This document shows, in pieces, positions 18,342-30,994 of a DNA stretch of 64,000 nucleotides; within the stretch, counting starts at the first letter, position 1, and each line of letters begins with the position of its first letter. Source of the DNA: Sphingobacteriales bacterium 39-19 (GTDB taxonomy: Bacteria; Bacteroidota; Bacteroidia; Chitinophagales; Chitinophagaceae); the NCBI GenBank assembly GCA_001898465.1, contig MKTX01000005.1:1-64000 (forward strand), in the 5' to 3' direction. The translations under genes and the position numbers were made by a program. Below the pieces are notes generated by a model. That model saw only the letters and a list, made by a program, of their open reading frames with translations. It did no database searches and was not told where the DNA came from.

Positions 18342-18405
18342 CATTTACAGCGCTGCCGCCGTAAGTTCACTTTTCTTTTTGATGCAACTGTTTTATCTTT
18401 GCAGT

Positions 18406-18499
18406 GGCAAGTCTTATACGACCAGCTCCTGCTGAACTCCCCCAGGGCCGGAAGGCAGCAAGGGTAGGTGGTTGAGCGGTGTGATATAAGTAACTTGCC
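18406..18499 (+). ncRNA. ffs: signal recognition particle RNA, bacterial small type
   Basis: Conserved apical domain 'CCCCCAGGGCCGGAAGGCAGCAAGGGTA' closed by GGCAAGT/ACTTGCC. Confidence 0.93.
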
Positions 18500-18531
18500 A
18501 TTTTATTTTTAACCTCTTAATTCATTTTAAT

Positions 18532-28475: not shown

Positions 28476-30629
28476 TTAATCTTCTACTTTCAATTTACCT
28501 TTTTGTTTGGCCATTACTTCTTCTGCAATATTAGTAGGTGCAGGAGCATAATGACTGAACTCCATGGTAGAAGTAGCCCTTCCGCTGGATAATGAACGCA
28601 ATTGGGTTACGTATCCAAACATTTCACTCAAAGGAACTTTTGCTTTAATAACCTGTAAATTAGCACGGCTATCCATTCCTTCCAGCATCCCCCGGCGGCG
28701 GTTCAGGTCACCGGTTACATCACCCATGTATTGATCGGGGGTTAATACTTCTACTTTCATAATGGGTTCCAGTAATACCGGTTTTGCTTTTTTGCCTGCT
28801 TCACGGAAACCTTGCTTAGCACAAAGTTCAAAGCTCATGGCATCAGAATCCACCTGGTGGAAGCTACCATCTTTTACAGTTACCTTCATGCTTTCCATTG
28901 GGTAAGCCGCCAGTACACCGGTTGTCATAGCTGTATCAAAACCTTTTTGAATGGCAGGTACAAATTCTTTAGGAATTGAACCTCCAAATAAGGCATTTAC
29001 AAACTGGAAGTTTTTCTTTCCTTCTGATTCTTTCAGGAATTCTTCATCAGCAGGCCCTATTTCAAAAATGATATCGGCAAACTTACCCCGTCCACCGGTT
29101 TGTTTTTTCAAAATTTCACGGTGTTCAATTGTATTTTGAAATGCCTCTTTATAAGCCACCTGGGGTGCTCCCTGGTTAACTTCTACTTTAAACTCACGGC
29201 GCAAACGGTCAATGATAATTTCCAGGTGAAGCTCGCCCATACCTCTTAAAATGGTTTGGCCGGTATCTTCATCTGTATTTACACGTAATGTAGGATCTTC
29301 CTCTACCAATTTGGCAATAGCCATACCCATTTTATCTACGTCAACCTGGGTTTTGGGTTCAATGGCAATGGCAATAACCGGTTCGGGAATAAACATATTT
29401 TCCAGGGTAATGGGATGGTCTTCATCACAAAGGGTATCCCCGGTTTTAATTTCCTTAAAACCAACGGCAGCGCCAATATCACCCGCTTCAATAAAGTCAA
29501 TTGGATTTTGTTTATTCGCAAACATTTTCATAATGCGGCTTATCCTTTCTTTTTTTCCACTTCTCACATTCAAAACATAAGAGCCCGCATCCAAGTGCCC
29601 GCTATAGCAACGGAAGAAAGCCAAACGGCCCACAAAAGGATCGGTCATAATTTTAAATGCCAGTGCAGAAAATGGTTCTTTTGCATCCGGTTTGCGGCTA
29701 ATGGTTTCACCGGTATCAGGATCCAGGCCTTCAATCGCTTCAATATCTACTGGGCTTGGTAAATAACGGCATACTGCATCTAATGCAGTTTGTACCCCTT
29801 TATTTTTAAAAGAAGAACCACACATCATGGGAACAATGCTCAAATCGATAGTTGCTTTACGAATCGCTTCATGCATTTCTGCTTCCGTAATGGTATCCGG
29901 GTTTTCAAAGAATTTTTCCATCAGCATATCATCATATTCGGCAACAGCTTCTACCAATGCCGCTCTCCAATGGTTTACATCTTCTACCATATCAGCCGGT
30001 ACATCTATTTCATCAAAAGTCATCCCCTCTGTTTCCATATGCCAGATAATGCCTTTATTCTTAATTAAATCTACTACCCCGGTAAAATTATCTTCAGCGC
30101 CAATGGGTAATTGCAGCGGAACTGCTTTTGCACCCAGCATTTCTTTTACTTGCTTTACTACATTTAAAAAGTCAGCCCCTGCCCTGTCCATTTTATTTAC
30201 AAAACCAATACGGGGAACTTTATATCGGTTTGCCTGGCGCCATACGGTTTCGCTTTGAGGTTCTACCCCATCTACCGCACTAAATAATGCGATCAAGCCA
30301 TCTAATACACGCATACTTCTTTCTACCTCCACGGTAAAGTCCACGTGACCGGGCGTATCAATAATGTTAAATGAATATTTTTTGGTTTCAGGAATTACTT
30401 TCCCTTTATCAGTTGGGAAATTCCACTGGCAACTTACCGCTGCCGATGTAATGGTAATCCCCCTTTCTTTTTCCTGTTCCATCCAGTCGGTTGTTGCTGC
30501 GCCCTCGTGCACTTCCCCGGTTTTATGAATCATACCCGTGTAACGTAATATACGTTCGGTGGTAGTGGTTTTACCAGCATCAATATGAGCAGCAATTCCA
30601 AAATTTCGTTGATAACGTAAATCTGCCAT
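28476..30629 (-). CDS. fusA: elongation factor G
   Basis: '[24 protein letters not shown]', '[21 protein letters not shown]', full-length 717 aa. Confidence 0.97.
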
Positions 30630-30840
30630 CGTTTTTTATTTAATATTTAAAGTGTAAAATTTTTATTGGGGTCTCCCCCCATGATTTGTTTTCTAATTAT
30701 TTTGTTACCAGCAGTAAATCATTCATCATCTTTATAGGCGTCGCACTCTTGTACGGCGCATCGCTGCTGATCTTCTCCCGGCAATAAGCTTATTGGCTAA
30801 GGGGGAGGTTATATGGTAGTATTGCTGCTCTCATAATATG

Positions 30841-30893
30841 CTAAATTGCCGTGCCACCATCTACCAGCACGGGCATTTAGCGGCGCAAAGGTA
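30841..30893 (-). promoter_or_regulatory. fusA promoter -7 element plus 5' leader stem-loop
   Basis: TACCTTTG (30893-30886 on minus), then GCTAAAT..CCGTGC / GCACGG..ATTTAGC stem (30840-30881). Confidence 0.55.
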
Positions 30894-30964: not shown

Positions 30965-30994
30965 TAAAAAAGGCTGCCCGGTTGGGCAGCCTTA
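30965..30994 (-). terminator. rho-independent terminator of the metalloprotease gene
   Basis: AAGGCTGCCC-ggtt-GGGCAGCCTT (30971-30994) followed by TTTTTT on minus. Confidence 0.85.

Follow-up and report, generated by a model that had tools for sequence, protein, structure and literature searches.

How the supply of elongation factor G (EF-G) is matched to ribosome number when its gene lies outside the classical str operon is a question on which, to our knowledge, little is known, and it is raised directly by the fusA locus described here. We analysed a 64,000-nucleotide stretch of a Chitinophagaceae genome (the window), in which fusA, encoding an EF-G of 717 aa, occupies positions 28476–30629 of the minus strand with its ATG at 30629; all leader features described below lie on that strand. 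The gene is separate from other translation genes, and its upstream neighbour, which encodes an unrelated protein of 1503 aa, is closed by a strong intrinsic-terminator-like hairpin of 10 pairs followed by a T tail (30970–30993, minus strand). With an unrelated gene upstream and this hairpin in between, fusA should have its own promoter.

A -7 promoter element, TACCTTTG, is found at 30886–30893 and fits the Bacteroidota consensus with its G at -5, according to the numbering of the Flavobacterium TAnnTTTG box (PMC6847099), so that the predicted +1 falls at 30881, on the first base of a stem. Among the aligned leaders of relatives, the TAnnTTTG box lies 4 nt 5′ of the 5′ arm of this stem (5 nt in two of them), and the stem starts at the predicted +1 in all. 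The -33 TTTG is absent from the window, although most relatives carry one before fusA. An initial annotation of this DNA had read the same -7 box, a start near 30880, a missing -33 TTTG and a long structured fusA leader opening with a stem-loop. The comparison with relatives supports the promoter and the leader: the position of the box is kept, its numbering would place +1 at 30881, the structured leader is conserved in 13 genera, and the stem itself is real and maintained by compensatory changes.

To survey the leader more widely, upstream regions of fusA were gathered at the level of the family (120 genomes, all of which have a fusA orthologue) and of the genus (59 genomes), together with individually retrieved regions, and 55 distinct regions out of 136 parsed were aligned on the motif. 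When 200 family genomes were searched with a covariance model (R1) built on the first part of the leader, 24 of them, from 13 of the 104 genera, had a match; each had exactly one, and it always precedes fusA. The carriers are Ferruginibacter, the label of most of the motif-bearing related records, and about a dozen further genera of the Chitinophagaceae. Among 249 genomes from the order, R1 had no match outside the family, in a search whose filter can lose weak matches at such a sample size. Scanning the genome collection for the sequence pattern returned 28 matches. The downstream gene is constant, as in regulatory uORF leaders, since fusA follows all 22 of the Bacteroidota matches with enough sequence to tell (one checked by hand); one further Bacteroidota match is at the end of its contig, and the other five belong to other phyla, fewer than the roughly 15 estimated by chance.

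The 5′-terminal hairpin, P1 (30840–30881; arms 30881–30867 and 30855–30840), folds at -20.6 kcal/mol in the window (z -2.55), within a leader that folds as a whole at -63 kcal/mol (z -2.9). Across 51 aligned leaders its outer helix has standard pairs in 98.4% of cells, and five of its six pairs vary on both sides, for example with U-A in 37 leaders and C-G in 14. These counts are inflated by related sequences and are not tree-aware, and the covariation score was reached by none of 500 shuffles, while in controls of equal relatedness sliding the partner by one to three columns destroyed the pairing. Averaged over 55 leaders, the folding z of the P1 region reaches only -1.36, so that P1 is supported by covariation rather than by energy.

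Five nucleotides past P1, across a spacer of conserved length, lies the start of an upstream open reading frame (uORF), MRAAILPYNLPLSQ, at 30790–30834. In the window it reads ATG AGA GCA GCA ATA CTA CCA TAT AAC CTC CCC CTT AGC CAA TAA, 14 codons and a stop that run through the 5′ arm of a second hairpin; in most relatives it reads MRA* or MRV*, usually 3–4 codons, with the consensus ATG AGA G(C/T)N (NNN) stop. ATG AGA opens the uORF in 73 of 73 distinct leaders, a count that demanded a start followed by any arginine codon and would miss leaders lacking such a pair. As any arginine codon was allowed and AGA alone was found, the fixed AGA is an observation and not a product of the filter. The third codon specifies Val in 35 of the leaders, Ala in 31, Ser in four and Glu in two, and is a stop in one. 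An A at -3 of the start, present in 35 of 55 leaders, is favourable for initiation in Bacteroidota, which initiate without Shine-Dalgarno pairing (PMC6847099). The combination of a conserved start and an in-frame stop that characterises regulatory uORF leaders is found in all 73, and we give about an even chance to the leader being a uORF-controlled cis-regulator of EF-G synthesis.

The second hairpin, P3 (30775–30807), is formed in the window by CUCCC and GGGAG and has counterparts in relatives, with a mean folding z of -2.19 over 54 leaders. In Ferruginibacter it typically consists of CCCC, an apical stem, CUAC and GGGG, and in the other genera AUCRGC is found with GCYGAU. In the aligned relatives a CAUAY box (30811–30815 in the window) follows the uORF AUG by about 17 nt, and its role as an outer strand of the second hairpin is supported in some genera only. 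A long outer helix joining CAUAUC to a downstream GAUAUG was rejected for the set as a whole, averaging 5.1 bp against 4.6 bp in shuffles, and holds in several non-Ferruginibacter genera. Two further candidates were dropped, namely a hairpin between AUAUG at the uORF start and the CAUAU box, whose last base does not on inspection track the bases before the AUG, and mimicry of the 23S sarcin-ricin loop (UAYGAGAG), set aside as too weak.

The position of the uORF stop bears on whether it is the frame or the RNA that is conserved. The stop falls at codon 4 in 43 of the 73 leaders and at codon 5 in 13, and by codon 5 in 57 (kinship ignored); at least one member of 12 of the 13 genera stops at codon 4, and the remaining minority of uORFs, that of the window included, run for 8–23 codons. 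Stop triplets at the in-frame positions 7, 10 and 13 number 58 in total, compared with 9, 0, 1, 0, 0 and 1 at the off-frame positions 8, 9, 11, 12, 14 and 15. Where the stop is at codon 5, the preceding codon encodes several different residues, as if one codon may be added yet the frame must close. The stop itself may be TAA, TAG or TGA (the last in L124). In one genus (g53), which stops at codon 8 to 10, seven leaders encode the heptapeptide MRV[SFA]P[TS]I with wobble changes, and a more distant leader (L145) reads ATG AGG GTA.

It is conceivable, though in our view unlikely, that the two hairpins and the AUGAGAG box between them form a plain RNA element, or a site recognised by an RNA-binding protein such as EF-G or a ribosomal protein, with the ORF incidental. 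AUGAGAG is almost invariant at the nucleotide level, its unchanging AGA does not favour a protein-like pattern, and both hairpins and the 5-nt spacer are conserved along with it. Such an element would nevertheless not predict stops that stay in frame when shifted by one codon, nor the varying stop type, the wobble-like variation in g53 and the AGG of L145. The pattern, as far as sequence comparison can tell, favours translation of the uORF over a purely RNA motif, and both constraints may act. Two observations temper uORF-controlled regulation in turn: AGA is never replaced by another arginine codon in the 73 leaders, from which it follows that the RNA sequence itself is also constrained, and the minority of longer uORFs implies that an early stop is not essential.

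A more doubtful alternative is that the leader serves mRNA stability or insulation, with P1 protecting the transcript and the remainder being a passive long leader. Every aligned leader has P1 beginning at the predicted +1, as would be expected, but this reading does not account for the conserved ATG AGA box, for the in-frame stop or for the second hairpin.

The initial annotation had itself proposed an 11-codon ORF, MPVLVDGGTAI, inside P1, together with a switch in which a C-run pairs with either a local or a distal G-run. Its local pairing, CTCCC (30807–30803) with GGGAG (30779–30775), corresponds to the second hairpin and recurs in relatives. The distal partner GGGGGGAG (30673–30680) is present and paired in the minimum-energy fold of the window, but it has no counterpart in relatives: of 56 leaders, only 7 carry a GGGG anywhere in the last 70 nt before the fusA ATG. 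The mutually exclusive folds that use this distal partner are specific to the window sequence. The ORF likewise exists in the window (30841–30876, ATG to TAG) and is not conserved: 4 of 55 leaders have an ATG at this site, and the peptides they encode are unrelated. The notion of a leader mini-ORF was right in kind, the conserved one being ATG AGA GYN between the hairpins. Although both of its features can be found in the window, we regard this switch model as very improbable.

We tentatively propose the following account of uORF-controlled fusA regulation. Transcription would begin at the base of P1. A ribosome initiating at the uORF, 5 nt past P1, would have to unpair the base of P1 and would arrive at the second hairpin by the time it reads the stop a few codons on, so that occupancy of an ORF of two to four residues could set the fold of the leader and hence the yield of fusA. 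P1 and the second hairpin are about 22 nt apart, less than the length of a ribosome footprint; a ribosome on the uORF must therefore disturb one or both. Because the uORF is so short, its occupancy would be governed by initiation, by a handful of translocations and by termination and recycling. The encoded peptides (MRA, MRV, MRS, MRVK and similar) contain no run of a single amino acid, and thus lack the repeated codons for one amino acid that mark an amino-acid attenuator. With a peptide this short and lacking such a run, the signal is more likely to be general translation capacity than an amino acid.

That capacity, comprising initiation, translocation, termination and recycling, is partly EF-G's own work, and from this we infer a possible feedback on EF-G supply, in one direction or the other. 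EF-G acts in recycling and, together with RRF, also dismantles early complexes (PMC10158994), which along with its role in translocation makes such feedback an economical reading. A more specific form, which we advance only as a possibility and a fairly slim one, is an attenuator that senses the translation machine, in which the minimal ORF would report the rate of translocation, termination and recycling and EF-G would set its own synthesis by way of the early ribosome cycle, without a ligand or amino acid. Against the cis-regulatory reading, the proximity of P1 to the AUG should hinder initiation. As for the route of the signal to fusA, the minus strand of the window leader contains no intrinsic terminator, a hallmark of amino-acid attenuators, and no clear sequestration of the fusA start was found.

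The leader displays individual features of several known systems. Minigenes that cause peptidyl-tRNA drop-off, such as lambda bar, have only two to three codons and put termination and recycling under stress; the fusA uORF also consists of few codons, although such minigenes are not known as regulatory leaders of EF-G genes. The Streptococcus fthC motif, a uORF-candidate RNA, likewise has a constant downstream gene and, between its hairpins, a conserved stretch that holds a putative AUG (PMC11109978). Its stop lies inside P2, and it possesses an intrinsic terminator hairpin and a Shine-Dalgarno-like region (PMC11109978), whereas the fusA leader has no Shine-Dalgarno sequence and no terminator, and its ORF closes within 4–5 codons in most leaders. 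The Corynebacterium ilvB uORF attenuator also places a leader ORF and hairpins ahead of a single gene (PMC11109978, PMC10272879), but it senses branched-chain amino acids by means of a codon-rich peptide and a terminator, neither of which the fusA leader has. Within the same phylum, an EF-G gene is also under control in Bacteroides thetaiotaomicron, where Cur acts on the paralogue fusA2, and the passages on Cur in these sources mention no fusA uORF (PMC6989115, PMC10994844).

Leaders with uORFs are a known class, while an ORF of two to four residues before an EF-G gene has, so far as we could establish, no precedent: we found no description of a fusA uORF in a search of the openly accessible literature, and Rfam covariance models gave no relevant match for the leader of the window or those of seven relatives. 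The motif, an addition to the RNA motifs in Rfam, is probably an undescribed switch tying EF-G production to ribosome performance. Such a conserved minimal ORF provides a small and experimentally accessible example of what may be sensing of translation capacity in Bacteroidota.

The usefulness of a structured leader may date from the departure of fusA from the str operon. In several genera that lack the motif (for example L042, L045, L048, L050, L059 and L062), an apparent rpsG lies just upstream of fusA, and the same upstream regions contain a fusA promoter of their own with a short leader of about 35–85 nt. In L014 both rpsG and the motif are present upstream of fusA.

A separate, recurrent sequence, which we call Element B, also lies within the leader. 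A DNA search places one copy at 30706–30782 (minus strand), with its core GTACAAGAGTGCGACGC at 30754–30738; the element spans about 75 nt, with a GCTGAATAAAG-like stretch on either side of the core. Only a minority of motif-bearing leaders contain Element B, so it does not belong to the fusA-specific motif. With a sequence-only model, 15 copies were counted in the window genome, 2–101 in seven congeners and at least 150 in each of two other genera, and none in several genera of the family or in ten sampled genomes of other families; further copies are found in L002, L003, L216, L264-L303 and others. Element B has no Rfam match, and no consensus structure emerged that would make it a structured RNA (RNAalifold 0.0). 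An antisense peptide (FIGVALLY) was also rejected, as the frames are broken in several copies and, on inspection, the variation has no codon pattern. Of 40 copies checked, nearly all are intergenic and 26 or 27 are followed by a gene start on the same strand, the orientation being mostly, if not always, toward the downstream start codon. The genes that follow include what we take, from their N-termini, to be fusA, tuf, icd, sucC and nuoCD. Elsewhere in the window, the sole Rfam match is a small SRP RNA at 18398–18504 of the plus strand (RF04183, Bacteroidales_small_SRP).
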